A stretch of DNA of 64,000 bases from Natrinema halophilum (lineage in GTDB: Archaea > Halobacteriota > Halobacteria > Halobacteriales > Natrialbaceae). Below are positions 44,702-61,242 of the stretch, one piece after another (position 1 is the stretch's first letter; each line of letters begins with the position of its first letter). The notes below the pieces were generated by a model. That model was not told where the DNA came from. It was given only the letters and a program-made list of their open reading frames with translations, and did not search any database. The DNA lies in NCBI RefSeq assembly GCF_013402815.2, contig NZ_CP058601.1, forward strand, positions 1,798,001-1,862,000. Direction: 5' to 3'. A program made the position numbers and the translations under genes.

Positions 44702-45553
44702 TTAGAGGACGAACGGGACGGGGAGTTCCGGTCGCGCGAGGAGGACGACGAGCCCCGAGATGAGCGACACGGCACCGATACCGACAGCGAGTTCTTCACC
44801 CCAGGACGGGAGGCGTTCTATCGTAACGGCCCCCGTTAGCGCGACCATCCAGACGAGGTTCATCTCGCCGAAGAAGATCATCACCAGGAAAAAGATGCCA
44901 AAACTCGTCAGGACGCACCGGACACCGTGGTTCAGCCCCCGTTGGAGCGCCCGTACTGGACCATCCGAGTGCGGAGCGACTGATTCACAGCACGTCCGTA
45001 AGAACGACCGCTTGAACCGCGACAGTTGGTATAGCCCGGTGAGAACGAGGACGCCACCGATGACCAAGTGTGTGTACTCCCGAGTGACACCGTAAATACC
45101 GCCCGGAAGGACCGCGTTGTAGAGGAGCGGAACGCACGCGGAGAGGAGCCAGACGACGTAGTAGCTACCGAGAAACGCGCCCAGCGCCCGCACCGCGCCG
45201 AGACCCGACCCACGGTACGCGGCGGCGTACTCCCGCGTGAAGCGCGTCATCGCCGGTTGCATCATCGCCCACATCATCACACCCCACATGATCGTATACC
45301 CGACGACCGCTTCGAGCGTTCCGACGTGGAACACGGCTCGTTCCATCGCACCGGGTGCGGCCATCGGAACGTCGGCCGTCATCATCAGCCACGTCATCCC
45401 CGGCATCGGGACGTGACCACCGTACAGGAGCAGCCACCACAGGACGTCAATACCGAGCATGGCGGCGACCACGGCGGTCGTTCGATCGGGATCGACCGAG
45501 AGGCGTTCCGTCGCATCCGCCACCGCAGATCGAAGCCGAAGCGATGCGCTCAT
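44702..45553 (-). CDS. DUF2182 membrane protein, predicted metal-binding
   Basis: 283 residues with about seven membrane helices. A Met-rich stretch (HVPMPGMTWLMMTADVPMAA) near residues 47-66, MWGVMMWAMMQPAMTRF, and a cytoplasmic RFKRSFLRTCCES loop are the DUF2182 pattern; the family is described as predicted metal-binding. The Met/His clusters would suit copper(I). A small copper-type chaperone gene lies 100 bases upstream on the same strand, so a joint role in metal handling is a reasonable inference. Confidence 0.85.
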   Translation of the reverse strand: MSASLRLRSAVADATERLSVDPDRTTAVVAAMLGIDVLWWLLLYGGHVPMPGMTWLMMTADVPMAAPGAMERAVFHVGTLEAVVGYTIMWGVMMWAMMQPAMTRFTREYAAAYRGSGLGAVRALGAFLGSYYVVWLLSACVPLLYNAVLPGGIYGVTREYTHLVIGGVLVLTGLYQLSRFKRSFLRTCCESVAPHSDGPVRALQRGLNHGVRCVLTSFGIFFLVMIFFGEMNLVWMVALTGAVTIERLPSWGEELAVGIGAVSLISGLVVLLARPELPVPFVL

Positions 45554-48849: not shown

Positions 48850-51800
48850 ATGCCAGATCTGGGGACGACTTTCAATTCAATATATGCCAGAATCCAGCAA
48901 CGTCGGGACTTGGAGGAGAGTGAGGTCACCGACGTGTTCACCGACAATGATTTCTTCCAGACGCTGGGGTACAAAGGTATCCCAATCGACGTTCGTTCCG
49001 AGAACCACATCGTTGGTGGAGATCGTCCAGACTACTTCGCGAAGGATGATATCGGAAACGTCGTATTCGTCGTTGAGTTCAAGAAACCAACGCGAGATGA
49101 CGACCTCGGGAGCCACCGGAGGCAGCTGTGGGAGCAGTACGTAGTCCCGCTCAGGGCCGATTACGGTGTGCTGACCGACGGAGAAGAGCTGATCTTCTAC
49201 GAACGGGTCGGGCGAGACAACTATGATCGCCGGTTCCGCGTTAGCCTGAATGAAATCTCAGACGAACAGCTCGCCGAACTGGAACAGCTCCACAAGCCCA
49301 GCTATTCGTTCAGTTCAACTGAAGAGATCGAGGACTACTTCGCCACTACAGAGACTGTCTCAGTCGGGACCAGAGTCGACGGGGAGCCAGTTGGGCAGAA
49401 TGAGTTCATGGATACGTTCCGGCTGGAGCGTGGAACACTGTTCTATCAAATGCTGGAGCACACGTACAGTCTGCTTGAGTACTATCTTGATCAACCGCGC
49501 GACAACAACTTCCCGCGTGATGCCTACGAATTCTGGAGGGAGTACTACGCTCCGGACCCAAGTTGGTACGACCTTCCGGAAGAGTGGCGGGACATCGCTG
49601 GCAGCGCTGCAAATAAACAGAGGGTGATGTTCGCGGTCGAGACCGTTCAGTCGCTACTGGGACGACTGATGTTGGCCAAGGCCTGTGAGGATCAGAACTT
49701 CCCCGGGGTCAACATATCCAGATTCGTACAGACCGAGACACCCGAATTCCGCGGCGAAGTCTCGCCGGTGTCATACATCCACGCCGGACGCGGCCTGATG
49801 GAGCAGATGCGTGAAGAACTTGTCGAGTCTGTGTTCGAGCAGGACATCTACTACTGGTGGACACAGAGTGCTGAGGAAATTGACGAACTTTCCGGACGAG
49901 AGATTAACGAGGAGAGTTGGCCGACTCCGTTGGAGGAATACGGAGAGCAATTCGTCGAATTCCTACTCGCTATTGGCCGGTTCGACTTTTCAGACATCAG
50001 TGGTGACCCACTCGGTCAGCTCTACCAGCAGTACTTCGACCGTCGGACTCGACAGGCGCTGGGCGAGTTCTACACGCCACCAAGCGTGTGTGAGTACGTC
50101 GTCGATTCGGTGGGATACGGCGACGGCGTTCAGTACAGCCGGCTCGTCGATCCCGCCTGTGGTTCTGGAACCTTCCTGGTCTCGGCGCTGGACCGTTACA
50201 AGAACGAACTCGGCACGGAGATGGATCGACCAGCAGCCCTGCACGACCTCTGTAACAGTGCGCGGGTGGTCGGGCTCGACATCCACCCCTTCGCGGTCGT
50301 AATGGCACAGATCCGCTTCATGCTTGAGATTCTCGACGAGTACAAGCGCGCCATCGAGGAGGACCCCGGACTGGTGTTGCGGCGACTTCCCGTGTTCCGG
50401 ACTGACTCCCTGATTGACGAGTCAGAGACTGAAGAGGGCCGTCAGCAGTCGTTAGGAGCCAGCTTCGGTGAGGATACCATCGAGTTTGATATGCCGCTAC
50501 CCATCCGGCGAGGGGAGGAATTCGAGACGATGACCTTCGAGTTCCCACGGTTCAGCGAGGTCCAGTCGTCGACGGCTGGCCAAATAAGTAATCGACAAGA
50601 GTATTTCTCTGTCCTGCTGGCAGTCTTCGACGCGGTCAAGGACCAAGTTAAAGAGGAGGACTACGACATCAGCGAGGATGATCTGGTCGCATATCTCTAC
50701 AATTACTTCTCGTCGGACACTAATGTCGAACAGGTCGCCAGCACGTTCGTCGACACGGCGGAGACGTTCCTCGACATGGTACGGGAACTCCGCGAGGACT
50801 ACAACGACGGACGTCTCCTCAAACTGGTCGAGGACCTCGTTCTGAGTGCCGTCCTCAAGAATAGCATCGACTTCGACTACGTCGTCGGCAACCCGCCGTG
50901 GGTGGCAAAGCAGAACACCCACTCGCCGCCAAGGCAAGAGCGCAGATTGAAGCAACAGTATCTCTCGGCGTGGAAGGAAACCGATCCCTATCTTCAGTTC
51001 ACCGAACGAGGGCTCGGGATGCTACGTGAGGGCGGTTCTCTCGGCTTAGTGGTCTCAAATCGGTTCCTCAGCAACCAGGGTGGCAAGGAGATTCGTGCAC
51101 TACTCGCGAAGAACCAGATCACGGAACTTGTCGACTTCACTGACTACCCAGTGTTTAGCGGCGCGACGAACTACTCGGCAATTCTTACAGTGGAGAAACA
51201 AGTCCCAAACGACGACTGGACATCGTTCGTTGGAAACGGTCGCTTTAAGAACGGACACACGATCGAGGCCGCACGAGTCCGGGACTGGGACGGCGAAATC
51301 CCGGAGTTGGTCGATCAACTGTACGCCCGGGAGCCAACCGAGTCGGTCGACTTCTACGAAATCGACTCACAGCGATTTCAGGGACGAATCCCCCTCCGCA
51401 ACGGGGCGGTGATGACCGAGGAGGTGGAGGAAACGTTCGAGGAATATCAGAACGTCACGGTAACGCGGAACCTTCCTCTGGCGGACATCTGGCCAAACTC
51501 GCCGCCGGAGGAGTACGAACTCGTAGAACGCGTCGAGTCGGAGATGGAAATGCGGCTCGGCGATCGCTCCGTCGTCAGAGACAATGAGCACGAAAATGCA
51601 CCGAATCTGGTAGGAGATGATATCCGCGTCGGGATACAGACCAGCGGTGACGACGCATACATCGTCCACCCAGAAGTTGGTATAGACAAGGAGAACCTCC
51701 ATGAGCTTGACCGAATCACCGTAACCCCTCGCGGAGTTGACAAATCGTACACCGTCGAGACAGACCTACTGAAAATAGATATCACCGGTAAAGATACTGC

Positions 51801-52975
51801 TCGGGTGGCTCCCCGACTGGAGCAACCGACTGGTATTTGTTCCGTACGTACAAGGTGACGAGCGAGCCAAACTCGTTCCCCCAAACCAGTTCGCAGACGA
51901 GTACCCGCGAACATGGGAGTACTTCACGGATGCATCGGTGCTGAAAACACTCTCCGATGAGTCGACGGAGCGTAAGGAAATCCACGCACGACTAGCAGCT
52001 GAGTTCGACATCATAGACAACCGAGATACGGCGACCGGGTACCAGAATACTGAATTGTCCGATGGCGACTATCGAAACCTGTCCGATGTTCTCCGCACGC
52101 AACCTGACGAAGTCTACCAATTAGACGACGACCTGTGGTGGTACCGGTACATGCGACGGCAGAACGTGGAGGTACTACCTGAACCAAAGGTCCTAACTGG
52201 TGATCTCGTCCAATATAACAAGCTGAGCTTCGACGACGCTGGAATCATGGCACCTCACAACGTCAGCGTGTACGCCATCATTCTCCCCAGAGTCGATCGT
52301 CACTCTGTGGCTGCTGTATTAAATTCTGCGTTAGTCGAGTTCTTCCACAAGCAACATTCCCGTATTCACCAGGGGAAGGCTTACAGATACATCGAAGACC
52401 ACACGTCGCAATGGCCACTCATTCGGCCCTCTGGAGAGGAGCGGGACCGCCTCGAAACGCTGGTTGAGGAGATCATACACCTCAAAGACCTCCAAATCAA
52501 GGTCCCGCAGTTCCCAGACCCGTATATCGCTGAAGCACGAGAGAGTGGTAGTGAATTCGTGAATATCTCTTACACTCCTTCGTCCTCTTATCAGGCAGAT
52601 CCGTCAATACAGCCTGACCTGTCTGGTGATCCTATCATCGAACTCTCTGACGGGCAGATCGACGACTCGATCATTGCTAACGATACCGTTGCGGAATACG
52701 TCCGTGAGGCGCTTGAGGGCCGAGAGCTTGAAGCCAACACTCAGGTCTCTATTCTCGTACCGCTAGACATAGATGTTACCGAGGACGCGCTTGATGAATT
52801 CGAAGCTGATTGCGAGGAACTCGAATCAATGGACATCAATGAGATCGAGGCTGAGATAGACAACATCGTCTTCGACCTATACGGAATCGACTCCGAGCGT
52901 CACCGTGAGATGATGCGGCGTTATAACAACCAGTATAAGTCTGTACAACGGATCGACCCAGAAACGGGCGAGTAG
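48850..52975 (+). CDS. Single-chain (type IIG-like) restriction-modification enzyme, frameshifted
   Basis: Two consecutive frames form one protein of about 1374 residues once a single G is removed from GGG at 51803-51805. The order of domains is: PD-(D/E)xK nuclease (P60-D61, E76 and K78 in VEFKKP), a helical region, adenine-specific methyltransferase with motif I DPACGSGTF (D434) and motif IV NPPW (681-684), then a target-recognition-like C-terminal part. As read, the first frame stops at 51856-51858, 17 codons after the shift. The second resumes as WLPDWSNRLVFVPYVQGDER. With the break the enzyme would lack its C-terminal third. It may be a dead gene, a switchable one, or a sequencing error. 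Confidence 0.8.
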
Positions 52976-55990: not shown

Positions 55991-58900
55991 ATGGGGATAT
56001 CGGATGTCTCGATTCACCCGGCCATAGGCATCGCCCGCGTGGGCAACAGCGACCAGTTCTTTATCGGGCCCGAGAAGCCCTGGGAGACGCTCGAGCCCAC
56101 CGGCGGGTTCAAGGACGACACCTGTCGGGTGAAGCGCCAAGGCGCACGCTTTCGCCTCTTTGCCTCCTACGACGATGATCGCGATCCCACGGAGTTGTCG
56201 ACCGATGACGTCGAATCCATCGAGTGGAACGTCACGCTCGCCAACAAGAAGGCAACGACCTACCCCGATAGGCGGAATAACCTCAGCGAGTGGGACCGAA
56301 TCAGCGAGGATGAAGCCTCAATCAAACCGGGGACCGTGACGGTCACCGGCGGCAACGACAGGGCAGTCGTCTCGGAGGACCGGATCGTTTTGCCACGGAA
56401 GAAAGATCCCGACGAACTCGGCTCGTTCCCCGGGATGGCGGACGTCTCACTCGGAGAAATTCGGACCGACAGCCACGGCCGGCTGATCGTCCTCGGGGGG
56501 AAGGGAGAGTCGGATACGCCACACGATCTCTCGAAGGAAACCTTCGCAGACAGCGACTTCCACAACACAGGCTGGTACGACGACACGGCCGACGGAGCGG
56601 TGACAGCGACGGTAAAGACGAATGAACAGACATTCGAGGAGATCCCTGCGTGGGTCATTGTCGGGCCCCCGAAATTTGCACCGGGGATCGACAATATGGT
56701 CACGCTGTACGAGCGCCTCTACGACGTAATGGTCGAGGCCGGCTACGAGAACCCGCCATCGAAACCGTCGTACACGGAACACATTGCGCCCGTCCTGCAG
56801 CGGGCAAAAGAGGTCGAATGGATCGCTTCCCCGTCGCATGCGACCCACACTGGGGACATGGAGGGAATCTCGGCCGCCTGGGACCACCCCGTCGGGAAGA
56901 CCCACGACGTGATCCGGAACCGCGTGTTCGAGAAGTTGCGCAAGCCATTCGCGTTCAACGCTCATCATTCCGGTGACCCGGCAATGCGTATCTCGCCGGG
57001 GACCCGAGTCGTGTTCGACTGGGTGTCCTACAGTCACGATGTCACCGTCGAAGACCAGCCCTCCGGAGCGTCCTGGACCGGCCATCCGACGACCGAGAAC
57101 AGAGGCTTCTCCGTTTCACACACGTTCACCACCGAAGGGGTGTACACGTTCTACTGTGCAAACCACGTCAGTCCGTGGGGCATGAAAGGGGCTATCGTAG
57201 TCGGGTCCGACACTGCGGCGGACTTCGGCGACTGGTTCACCGACGCGCCACGGGGAGGTGCGACACCCACCTTCGACGGTTCGACAGCTGATCGCACCGG
57301 TCGATCAAAGGTTACCGTCGAGGTCGGTACGTACGTCGGGGACATGCCACGAATCGCGGGCGACGACGCCCACCTCCCAGAGACGTATCTCGAACTGTTC
57401 CAACAGTGGAAAGATAACGACTACATCGACGACTGGAGCTCGGACTGGGACGACGGTCCCGATCCGCCAGCGACAGTGACCCACGCGGGACTGGACAGGG
57501 CCGCACTCGAAAACGCGATGGGGGGTGCATTCTTCCCGGGGATCGAGACCGGCGGACTCATCGAGTACCTGCCAATCGACCAGTTGCCAATTCTGGATCC
57601 GACCAACTACCAGGGGCCGTTTAGGCTCGATCACGACGCCGTCGATCCCGGGGATCTGACCAAGTACATGGCGGTCCCGTGGCAGACGGACTTCTTCGCC
57701 TGTGGCTTCGGGACCTGGTGGCCGGCGTCGCGACCGATGGAGGTCCACCCACAGGGGCGGAACACGGAGAAAGACTGGGCTCGCGACCTCATCCAGTCTC
57801 AGCGGGGCAACGATACGGCCAACATGGTCGAGGACTGGCACAAACTCGGCTTCGTCGTCGAGCAGGGCGAGGAGTACGTCGAGGTCGATCGGTGTCTGAA
57901 ACAGGTGCCCTCGATCACGCTACTGACGACGAGTATCGACTTCGGGGACGTCCCCCACGGTCCGATGGGATCGCGGACGACGAAACGGGCTATCGTGTTC
58001 GAGGTGAATGCGCCGACCGCTGATGTCGAACTAGAAATCACGAAGCAACCGACCGAACAGGCAAACATCCGTACTCCAAAAACACGCGGGTCAGTCACGC
58101 AAACGGCGACCAACGAGATCAAGACGATTCGATTCCCCGTCGAATACGACACGGACATCGGTGATACGGATATCCAGGCGACGATCGAGATTTCGGCCAC
58201 GAACAGCAGCGGCAAGTGGACGATCGACGTCACGGCGTCGACGATCGACTGGGAGACGACGGCGGTCTCGCTCGTCCTCGATCGGTCGGGGAGCATGAGT
58301 GAGTCAAGCGGCGACACCCGAACAAAACACGACACGTTGCAGGCCGCAGCAAAGACGTTCGTCAGATCAATGCTCGACGGATACGGCGTGTCGCTGGTCG
58401 GGTACAACCACGAGGCGAGCGCTCTGCAAGACGTCCGGGAGATCGGAACCGACGTCTCCGGTGGGACGTCCGTCAGGGACGCCACGATCGACGAGATAGA
58501 ATCCGGACTGACCCCCTCGGGCGCGACATCTATCGGAGACGGCATCAAGATCGGCCGGAAAACGCTCAATCAGGTCGGCCAGTACGCCCATGAGTCCATG
58601 GTGGTGCTTACGGACGGAAAAGAAAACACCGCCCCGTACATCGCCGACGAGGCCGGAACCGTCGACGAACGGACGTTCTCCGTGGGCCTCGGAAAGCCCG
58701 AAAACACGAGTGCGCCGGCCCTCGAGACGCTCTCGGGCAACACTGGCGGCTATCTACTCGTCACGGGCGAAGTCGACACCGAGGATCAGTTCCGACTGGA
58801 GAAGTACTTCCTCCAGATCCTCTCGGGGTTAACGACCGCCGAGGTCGCCCTCGATCCCGAGGGGACGCTCCAGGAGGGGGAACAACACCGAATCCCGTTT

Positions 58901-60065
58901 CAGGTGACTGACGCCGACACTGGCCTCGACATCATCCTGTTGACACCGTACCCGCAGGTCGTCGACTTCCGACTGGAGACGCCCATCGGCAACGTCATCG
59001 AGCCGTGGCGTGCCCACGCGGACCCGGCCATGAAGTGGGTCCTCGGCGACCGGGTCACCTACTACCGCCTGTCGCTACCTGCCGAGGTGGATCAGGATCG
59101 TCTCGAGAGCGACGGCCAGTGGCACGTCATCATGAGCATCGGCCGTCCGGAGACCAAACCCGACCGCGACGAACTCGACGAACTCGAGCGGATCGTCGGC
59201 CGGCGCGACGATGAGACGCGAGGTGCGCCGGTTCTGGCCGACGAGCGCCAGGAGTACGAGCACCGACTCGAGGACGTCCTGTCCGTAGCGACCGGGGTGG
59301 GGGAGGGCGTTCCGGGAGGGAGAGGAGGGGGGAGACGAGTCAACAAACGGTCTGCTCACCCAGACAGCGATCCCAGACGTACAGGAGGCCGGGTTGGACT
59401 ACTCCCTGCTCGTTCACAGTTACTCAAAGCTCTCGATGAACGCTTCGCTGGACCGAACAGGGTACGAACCGGGTGCAAAACTCCACGTCATTTCGTCAGT
59501 CACTGAGAGCGGAACACGCGTTGACAGCGTCGATGTTTGGGCCGACGTGACCCGTCCAGACGGGACGAGCGATCGCGTTCACCTCGAACCGGCGGACGAC
59601 CGGTATCGCGGGACGGTCCACACCTCGTCGCCCGGGACCTACCATATGCGTGTCCAAGCGCGCGGTCACACTTCGAAGGGAATCCCGTTCCAACGGGAAC
59701 AACGCGTAACCGGCGCCGTCTGGCACGGCGGCGACCACGACGCGGAGACGAGTGCCAGCGGCGGCGGGCCGGCCGCCCGCGAACGCGCCCGCCGTCGTCG
59801 CCTCTGTGAGACCCTCCACTGTCTGCTCAGCGAAGACGGGGCACTGACCGAGGAGTTCGTCGACCGCCTGGAAGCGGCGGGGATCGACGTCGATGCCATC
59901 CGTTCTTGCGTCGGCGCGTACTGTCACGACCTGAACCCCGAACGGATCGAAGAGGGCGGCGCTGCTCCCGACCATCCGCCGGAACAGTGGCACGAGCGCG
60001 ATGTCTTGGAGGATGTCGAAGACCAACTCCGGCGCGTCCTCGACGACCTTGGCATCGACCGCTGA
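55991..60065 (+). CDS. LodA/GoxA-type CTQ quinoprotein with inserted cupredoxin and fused VWA domain
   Basis: The N-terminal SIHPAIGIARVGNSDQFFIG, KRQGARFRLF and WNVTLANKKA are LodA-family. The CTQ region is VPWQTDFFACGFGTWWPASR: D567 and C571 keep the spacing of LodA Asp512 and Cys516. W616 in VEDWHKLGFVV is my candidate for the crosslinked Trp. Between the halves (about 318-405) lies a halocyanin-like domain with type-1 copper ligands H349, C389, H392 and M398. A VWA domain follows (MIDAS DRSGS at 764-768, T846, D875; about 757-945), then beta-sandwich-like domains. One extra G in G6 at 59327-59332 breaks the frame; removing it joins the last 245 residues, giving 1357 in all. As written, the first frame runs to 59506. 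No signal peptide is seen. Confidence 0.88.
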
Positions 60066-60072
60066 CGGCGGT

Positions 60073-61242
60073 ATGTCCGCGAATACCAATCTGACTGACG
60101 ATCGCGGTCGCTGTGAGGTGGCGGTCGTCGGCGGCGGGCCTGCCGGTGCGGTCGCTTCCCGGATCCTCGCCAATCGTGGTCGGGCGGTCGTTCTCGTAGA
60201 GGCCACCCGGTACGACGACTGGCGTCTCGGGGAGACACTCCAGCCGTCGATCCGTGAGCCCCTGACAGCGCTCGGCGTCGGAGAGGCATTCGACGCGATT
60301 CCGACGGTCTCCTCGAACGGGATTCGACGGTACTGGGGGGACGACGAGCCGAGGTCTCGGACGTTCCTCGCGAACCCGTACGCGGGCGGGTACCACGTCG
60401 ATCGGACGGCATTCGACCGGATGCTGGGTCTAGCCGCCCGCAACGCAGGGGCGACGCTCCTGCTTGGGGCACGTGTGGATGCGTGTGAACCCGATTTCGA
60501 CAGCCAAAGGATCTCACTTTCGCTCGATACGACAGCCGCATTCGCCGAAACGCTACCACTCGTGTCCGACGACCAGGACAGAATCAGCGCCCGAGCAGTC
60601 CTCGACGCCTCGGGCAGGACGGCGACTGTCGCACGCCGGTTGGGGGCTGACCGCGACGTCCACGATAAACTGGTCGGTGCCGGCGCGACGTTCCGGGCCG
60701 ATCACGATGACTGTGGCCGATACACGCTGATAGAGGCAATTCCGGATGGGTGGTGGTACTCGGCCCCGCTTCCCGGCGATCAATTGGTCGTCGTGTTCTT
60801 TACCGACGCGGATCTGCTCGGTGTGCGCAGTGGCGCTGACCCGTGGCGTGACGCGCTGAACGCGACCAGCGAAACAGCCGACCGCACGGCGGCGGCAACG
60901 TTCGAACAGGGGCCAGCCATTGCGCCAGTCCTGAGCCATCGGCTCGACCGTGACCTCGACGATCAGCCGTGGCTTGCCGTTGGGGACGCCGCGATGGGAG
61001 TCGACCCACTTTCGGGGACCGGCATCGAACGGGCTATCGACACCGGCGTTCGCGGTGCGATCGCGATCGACCGGTGGCTCGATGGATACCGTGATCAGGC
61101 CGAAACCTACGAAGATGACCTCGATGCCGACTTCAGCGAGTATCTCGAGCGCCGAGCGACATACTACCGGCGAGAGGACCGCTGGCCAGACACGGCGTTC
61201 TGGCGACGGCGTCACGATCCCGCGACAATCGACACGTCCTGA
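60073..61242 (+). CDS. LodB-like FAD-dependent oxidoreductase (quinone-cofactor maturation)
   Basis: 389 residues from the ATG at 60073, 7 bases after the lodA-like stop. EVAVVGGGPAGAVASRILAN is the FAD dinucleotide motif (G20, G22, G25). RLGETLQPSIREPLTALG and YHVDRTAFDRMLGLAA are typical of the halogenase/lycopene-cyclase-like flavoprotein group. AVLDASGRTATVARRLGAD and WLAVGDAAMGVDPLSGTGIE complete the FAD site. In Marinomonas the flavoprotein LodB is needed to form the CTQ cofactor in LodA; size, family and adjacency all fit the same role here. A free-standing oxidase on small molecules is the alternative. Confidence 0.85.
   Translation: MSANTNLTDDRGRCEVAVVGGGPAGAVASRILANRGRAVVLVEATRYDDWRLGETLQPSIREPLTALGVGEAFDAIPTVSSNGIRRYWGDDEPRSRTFLANPYAGGYHVDRTAFDRMLGLAARNAGATLLLGARVDACEPDFDSQRISLSLDTTAAFAETLPLVSDDQDRISARAVLDASGRTATVARRLGADRDVHDKLVGAGATFRADHDDCGRYTLIEAIPDGWWYSAPLPGDQLVVVFFTDADLLGVRSGADPWRDALNATSETADRTAAATFEQGPAIAPVLSHRLDRDLDDQPWLAVGDAAMGVDPLSGTGIERAIDTGVRGAIAIDRWLDGYRDQAETYEDDLDADFSEYLERRATYYRREDRWPDTAFWRRRHDPATIDTS

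Follow-up and report, generated by a model that had tools for sequence, protein, structure and literature searches.

In enzymes of the LodA family, which depend on cysteine tryptophylquinone (CTQ), reoxidation is by O2 and H2O2 is the product. In the characterised systems, the CTQ cofactor is made by a flavoprotein of the LodB/GoxB type. Tryptophylquinone dehydrogenases donate their electrons to hemes or cupredoxins; the TTQ enzyme methylamine dehydrogenase uses the cupredoxin amicyanin, and in the known dehydrogenases of this kind the electrons go to a separate carrier. Those LodA-family enzymes that a review lists as characterised are oxidases (PMC4699246). Proteins joining LodA to a vWA region are known from Amycolatopsis vancoresmycina and Cryptosporangium arvum, and the same 2015 survey found the LodA-like family in none of 602 archaeal genomes (PMC4417212). 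Halocyanin is the usual one-electron carrier of haloarchaea, and a fusion of halocyanin and cbaD has been recorded (PMC8305020). In the literature searched, with many subscription papers outside its scope, no report pairing a cupredoxin with CTQ was found, and of three papers mentioning both circular permutation and cupredoxins none concerns a natural permutant, judging by title and abstract.

The window analysed here is a 64,000-nucleotide stretch of the Natrinema halophilum genome, and all coordinates are positions within it. One of its genes encodes a LodA-type protein in which a cupredoxin is virtually certain to be nested. The gene, its parts and the adjoining gene are as follows.

55991..59506, + strand: CTQ protein of the LodA/GoxA family, 1171 aa in the main reading frame, holding the nested cupredoxin and, C-terminally, a vWA region
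55991..56947, + strand: LodA part preceding the insert (residues 1-319), with LodA_N at 9-224 and then helices at 239-316
56948..57337, + strand: inserted segment (residues 320-449), halocyanin homology from 320/328 to 447; the relatives have a loop of 4-20 aa
57338..57910, + strand: LodA part following the insert (residues 450-640), with LodA_C at 450-584, carrying the CTQ residues
57689..57721, + strand: D567, C571 and W577, aligned with the conserved Asp, Cys516 and Trp581 of LodA (CTQ); C-to-W spacing of 6
57911..59284, + strand: vWA region, with MIDAS-type DRSGS at 764-768, TSIGDG at 846 and LTDG at 873; common to the bacterial LodA-vWA subfamily
60073..61242, + strand: LodB/GoxB-like FAD monooxygenase (CTQ maturase family); ORF 60001-61242, start likely at 60073

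Pfam matches on the 1171-aa product were LodA_N (9-224, 180 bits), Copper-bind (plastocyanin/azurin, 331-404), LodA_C (450-584, 70 bits) and VWA_2 (761-876), and both LodA matches exceeded the Pfam cut-off. The NCBIfam equivalogs of LodA (lysine 6-oxidase) and GoxA (glycine oxidase) scored under their cut-offs, with 224.3 of 750 and 162.9 of 600 bits. For comparison, 80 LodA loci were gathered from public genomes and compared part by part. The vWA region lies C-terminal to LodA and has the MIDAS motif, the protein is collinear with the LodA-vWA clade up to about residue 1090, and in the tree it groups with 15 LodA-vWA rows (support 100/99). Judged from sequence and structural model, the product is a member of the LodA/GoxA (CTQ) family, closest to the bacterial LodA-vWA subfamily. 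It shares with LodA-vWA proteins the LodA_N, LodA_C and vWA parts in one chain, the Cys, Trp and Asp of the CTQ site and an adjacent lodB-like gene, an arrangement also seen in 13 LodA-vWA loci. ORF 60001-61242 matched NF038171 over its full length (236.8 bits, under the equivalog cut-off of 400). This is a known family in a new architecture and not a new kind of system.

The catalytic scaffold is well preserved, with 46 of 49 near-invariant LodA positions kept. C571, W577 and D567 were invariant across 41 sequences and also aligned with the CTQ residues in the LodA and GoxA structures. A cofactor cysteine at 'ENAMGG', which would have implied its loss, was considered and rejected, the PDB alignments placing the Cys at C571. 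The fold is that of LodA (2ymw/3weu) and GoxA (6byw and others), with Z of 35-37 and the same CTQ positions, but at 25-31% identity and with a C-to-W spacing of 6 here against 65 in LodA and about 15-16 in GoxA. The D-x3-C-x5-W spacing (D567/C571/W577) equals that of the QHNDH gamma subunit (Asp33/Cys37/Trp43; PMC7876137); little weight was put on this match because the closest LodA-vWA sequences are just one residue shorter. GoxA F316 (LodA Y211) corresponds to F185, before the insert, and GoxA D678 and the CTQ pair to D567, C571 and W577, after it. The position of GoxA H583 (LodA C448) is F515, and the LodA-vWA clade mostly has Phe, Tyr or Leu there. Since positions 185 and 515 are both Phe here, the substrate predicted from these alignments is probably neither lysine nor glycine.

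The position of the insert was determined by aligning 40 relatives at the loop that joins the helix with the end ...FEKLRKP to the invariant Pro in ...GDMP. This loop has 135 residues here versus 4-20 in the relatives; in the nearest LodA-vWA clade it has 4-12, and none of those proteins has a cupredoxin. A sequence-only reading had proposed that the cupredoxin lies inside the catalytic domain rather than at an end, with LodA-type sequence on both sides and a more direct passage in bacterial relatives. All of this was borne out. VFEKLRKPF stands at 312-320 and GDMPRI resumes from 450; the stretch 'MPRIAGDDAHLPETY' is normal LodA sequence by comparison with the relatives; and the insert-free relatives are collinear through the insertion point. 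The insert falls between the helices 306-316 and 464-474, within the half that is helical and carries CTQ. It is past the beta-rich N-terminal region (about residues 1-235) and is therefore not at the beta/alpha boundary. The AlphaFold model of residues 1-643 is confident on either side of the insert, and residues 5-640 superpose on LodA 2ymw_B over 449 residues (rmsd 2.7), the Z of 36.6 extending across both sides. Nesting may also constrain how the two redox centres lie relative to each other, as the sequence-only reading proposed.

The limits and the internal order of the module differ from that first description, which had placed it at residues 318-405 followed by a linker. The module extends from about 320 to 447 (56948-57331), and residues 405-447 are the first portion of a halocyanin unit whose order is swapped. 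The alternative of an ordinary cupredoxin with a free linker behind it was rejected, as these residues match the start of the unit. The two halves were located with a profile built from 25 canonical halocyanin units.

56972..57202, + strand: first half of the insert, residues 328-404, corresponding to positions 45-120 of the halocyanin unit; comprises strands 2-8 and the four Cu ligands; 101.6 bits
57227..57331, + strand: second half of the insert, residues 413-447, corresponding to positions 1-35 of the unit; comprises the conserved N-terminal linker and strand 1 (SKVTVEVG); 32.0 bits

Each profile segment, 45-120 and then 1-35, gave one match. The canonical unit runs from the linker (DWFTDA..GG..YDGTTVDKTG) through strand 1 (VTVxVG) and a loop (ADGNGG) to strands 2-8, which hold the Cu ligands and end in MKGAIVV. 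The order in the window is strands 2-8, linker, strand 1 and then directly LodA again. The best match to TIGR03102 likewise starts only at profile position 41 (41-114; 53.6 bits, under the cut-off of 93.8), and plastocyanins and pseudoazurins of the PDB align only from their residue 12-18, so strand 1 is absent on the N side. Among 391 genomes of the class, residues 327-448 matched haloarchaeal tandem halocyanins over the whole repeat period with E = 1e-37 and 52-62% identity, which excludes a chance resemblance. By these alignments, the insert is haloarchaeal and is one complete tandem-halocyanin period in single copy (residues 320-447). As read in its sequence, the module is almost certainly a natural circular permutant cut in the loop between strands 1 and 2, and it is likely that the permutation also holds for a folded domain. 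The insert had a pLDDT below 50 in the full AlphaFold model, whose MSA contained LodA relatives only, and 43.6 when modelled alone as a single sequence; a strand was predicted at 439-445 in the latter model, with that same low mean confidence. A Foldseek search with this low-confidence model gave no significant match, pseudoazurins and plastocyanins being among the chance-level ones.

The module may have originated as one period excised, out of register, from a tandem array. In an ordinary halocyanin a loop of 6-8 residues bridges what are here the new ends, which would thus be adjacent. This would make insertion into a short loop feasible; such ends would suit the host loop and leave the host fold undisturbed. 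Strand 1 would return via the linker of about 35 residues and complete the copper barrel.

The nearest relatives of the insert adjoin the genes of cytochrome oxidase subunits II and I (looked at in locus L122). The haloarchaeal tandem halocyanins (L004-L018 and L122; halocyanin/cbaD fusion type) have the same copper ligands and adjoin terminal-oxidase genes. Each of their units has the order linker, strand 1 and strands 2-8, and the arrays are flanked by signal-like segments at the N-terminus and membrane segments at the C-terminus. The window module, in contrast, is permuted, single and embedded in an enzyme, has no signal peptide, and its ligand loop is one residue longer and reads C-x-N-H.

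57035..57037, + strand: predicted Cu ligand H349 (from the alignment)
57155..57184, + strand: Cu ligand loop C389-x2-H392-x5-M398, CANHVSPWGM (from the alignment)

All four predicted type-1 Cu ligands (H349, C389, H392 and M398) are thus present in the alignment. The ligand loop had been described as one residue longer than usual, and 27 of 27 haloarchaeal motif matches were indeed C-x2-H-x4-M; the additional residue is a Trp (W396). Of 39 invariant halocyanin positions, the insert has 32 and has lost seven, compared with 0-1 of 40-41 lost in true halocyanin controls. Among those lost is the Pro of C-x-P-H, now Asn. The copper site, as predicted, is remodelled, via adaptation or relaxation. 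The reported lack of a visible signal peptide also stood: the ATG is preceded, at a distance of seven codons, by an in-frame stop, the relatives begin just before the same motif, and neither an export signal nor a lipid anchor was found in the start region of the protein. Halocyanins act on the outer side of the membrane, and it is doubtful that copper would be loaded in the cytoplasm. A gene for a PpoB2-type (PF09948) membrane copper chaperone (44702-45553, - strand) is located about 10 kb upstream of the LodA gene.

LodA_N was found in this genome alone when overlapping samples of the class (391 genomes), the genus (29), the family (125) and the phylum (392) were searched. A genome scan with the whole LodA plus insert as query found no relatives, no second protein with a cupredoxin insert was found among the genomes and LodA loci searched, and neither the protein nor the cupredoxin had relatives on the viral contigs searched. 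The nearest clade includes Kribbella, Virgisporangium, Sinosporangium, Lysobacter, Rhizobacter, Aquabacterium, a Brocadia MAG and others, and matches the window protein in the LodA N, LodA C and vWA parts at 38-48% identity. This closeness to bacterial LodA-vWA proteins suggests that the scaffold was acquired by inter-domain transfer. Asp and Glu make up 17-19% of the LodA parts versus 9-12% in the bacterial relatives, a strong halophile adaptation that argues against contamination; third-position GC is high throughout. A LodA-vWA gene without insert was also found on a 6-kb contig of Nitrososphaerales archaeon TH5895 (L049), assigned to another archaeal phylum. It could be another archaeal instance, or the contig may be bacterial and wrongly binned; in the tree it groups with Actinomycetota.

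LodA is associated with copper proteins elsewhere too. A 1506-aa ORF of Variovorax sp. YR216 (L051:3974-8491) contains multicopper-oxidase domains, a galactose oxidase-like part and LodA_N/LodA_C. As in the window protein, LodA is joined to cupredoxin-type domains, but these are full copper oxidases placed end-to-end, N-terminal to LodA, and not one permuted carrier within a loop. In a sister clade, compact LodA genes lie beside genes for multicopper oxidase, galactose oxidase-like protein and tyrosinase (L057, L058, L059, L061 and L062), which suggests a copper/quinone cross-linking or oxidation cassette. The tyrosinase of one of these loci (L061:3745-6945) is fused to a vWA region that shares 36% identity with the vWA half of the window protein across about 430 residues; the same C-terminal vWA module thus occurs on two different oxidases.

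As a whole, these data are best explained by a nested, permuted halocyanin that would accept electrons from CTQ within one chain, a reading held tentatively, at a little under an even chance. In this scheme the LodB-like neighbour would mature the CTQ (C571-W577) and a primary amine or amino acid would reduce it. Electrons would then move singly to the type-1 copper close by and from there into the respiratory chain, and this copper route would replace, or run alongside, the reduction of O2 to H2O2. The scheme would be analogous to that of methylamine dehydrogenase with amicyanin, in a single polypeptide. Methylamine dehydrogenase and QHNDH, as tryptophylquinone enzymes that donate electrons to a metal carrier, use separate subunits or partners (hemes, soluble cupredoxins), whereas the putative acceptor here is in the same polypeptide; the placement of a cupredoxin in its catalytic half suggests that this CTQ enzyme uses an intramolecular form of the dehydrogenase-to-carrier scheme. 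In favour of electron transfer are the retained Cu ligands and CTQ residues, the lodB-like neighbour, the donor relatives beside cytochrome oxidase genes and the LodA-copper links of the sister-gene clusters and the Variovorax fusion. Against it are the missing signal peptide, an apparent downstream frameshift, the single sequence, the insert's lack of a confident model, the seven lost halocyanin positions and the Trp gained in the ligand loop. Transfer from CTQ to copper within one chain, taken by itself, is therefore possible but somewhat doubtful. That the protein is a self-contained tryptophylquinone-copper dehydrogenase, in which the loop-wired permuted halocyanin takes the electrons of CTQH2 and turns an H2O2-producing oxidase into a respiratory-chain donor, is on balance unlikely.

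The module could also be folded, and may bind Cu, without being the acceptor for CTQ; it would then be an appendage for docking, stability or copper holding on an ordinary H2O2-forming oxidase. The loop is variable in length (4-20 aa in the relatives, about 42 aa in GoxA, longer in LodA) and hence tolerant of additions, the second sphere of the copper has drifted, and oxidases are what the review of the family describes. This reading is a serious one, if rather improbable: the four ligands are all retained, as are most of the invariant halocyanin positions, and a copper electron carrier is an unlikely random spacer next to a redox cofactor.

A gene in decay was considered in view of its 3' end.

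59285..59350, + strand: apparent frameshift in a G-rich stretch (linker), with G5 at 59299 and G6 at 59327
59364..60065, + strand: remaining C-terminal portion of the ancestral protein, continued in a different frame; its homologues are the ends of bacterial LodA-vWA proteins

Past the G-rich stretch, homology passes from the frame of ORF 55991-59506 to that of ORF 59394-60065, and the final 75 or so residues predicted for the former are probably out of frame. Though far downstream of the oxidase part, the apparent frameshift makes an intact gene less probable, unless a base-calling error explains it. A transferred bacterial LodA-vWA gene, hit by the insertion and the frameshift and now being lost as non-functional, would also agree with its presence in a single genome and with the invariant positions gone from the insert. 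Yet about 1,090 upstream codons are open, the scaffold retains nearly all of its conserved positions, lodB is intact, and the shift falls at homopolymer runs where a base-calling error is plausible. The halophilic amelioration in Asp and Glu content and third-position GC, moreover, argues for long residence under selection, and decay appears quite unlikely. Elsewhere in the window, an Eco57I-type restriction-modification gene seems split within 48850-52975, into 48850-51858 (methylase part) and 51938-52975 (weak match to a TaqI-like specificity domain), perhaps by a second frameshift.

It is highly improbable that the cupredoxin stands serially between independently folding LodA_N and LodA_C domains. 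Pfam does divide the family into these two parts, and LodA_C starts at the end of the insert, but the insert starts about 95 residues beyond LodA_N, within the helical region. When a module between two independent domains was looked for, both flanks were found to superpose together on LodA 2ymw and to share one active site, to which both contribute residues. An assembly or sequencing chimera, which the single genome and the further frame problem nearby might suggest, is scarcely credible: both junctions are in frame, at the exact loop and the exact repeat period, the module is just 55-62% identical to its nearest relatives, its composition is near that of the flanks, and the genome itself has no comparable halocyanin to misjoin (one other match, 37%), which makes a misjoined assembly unlikely.

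The window protein widens the range of the LodA family to Archaea. If the proposed electron transfer is true, the presence of both centres in one chain would make the quinone-to-carrier step directly measurable and engineerable. The module would exemplify a natural route to circular permutation, in which one period is taken out of register from a tandem repeat. It would also show why permutation suits insertion, the new ends lying side by side, as protein engineers arrange deliberately.
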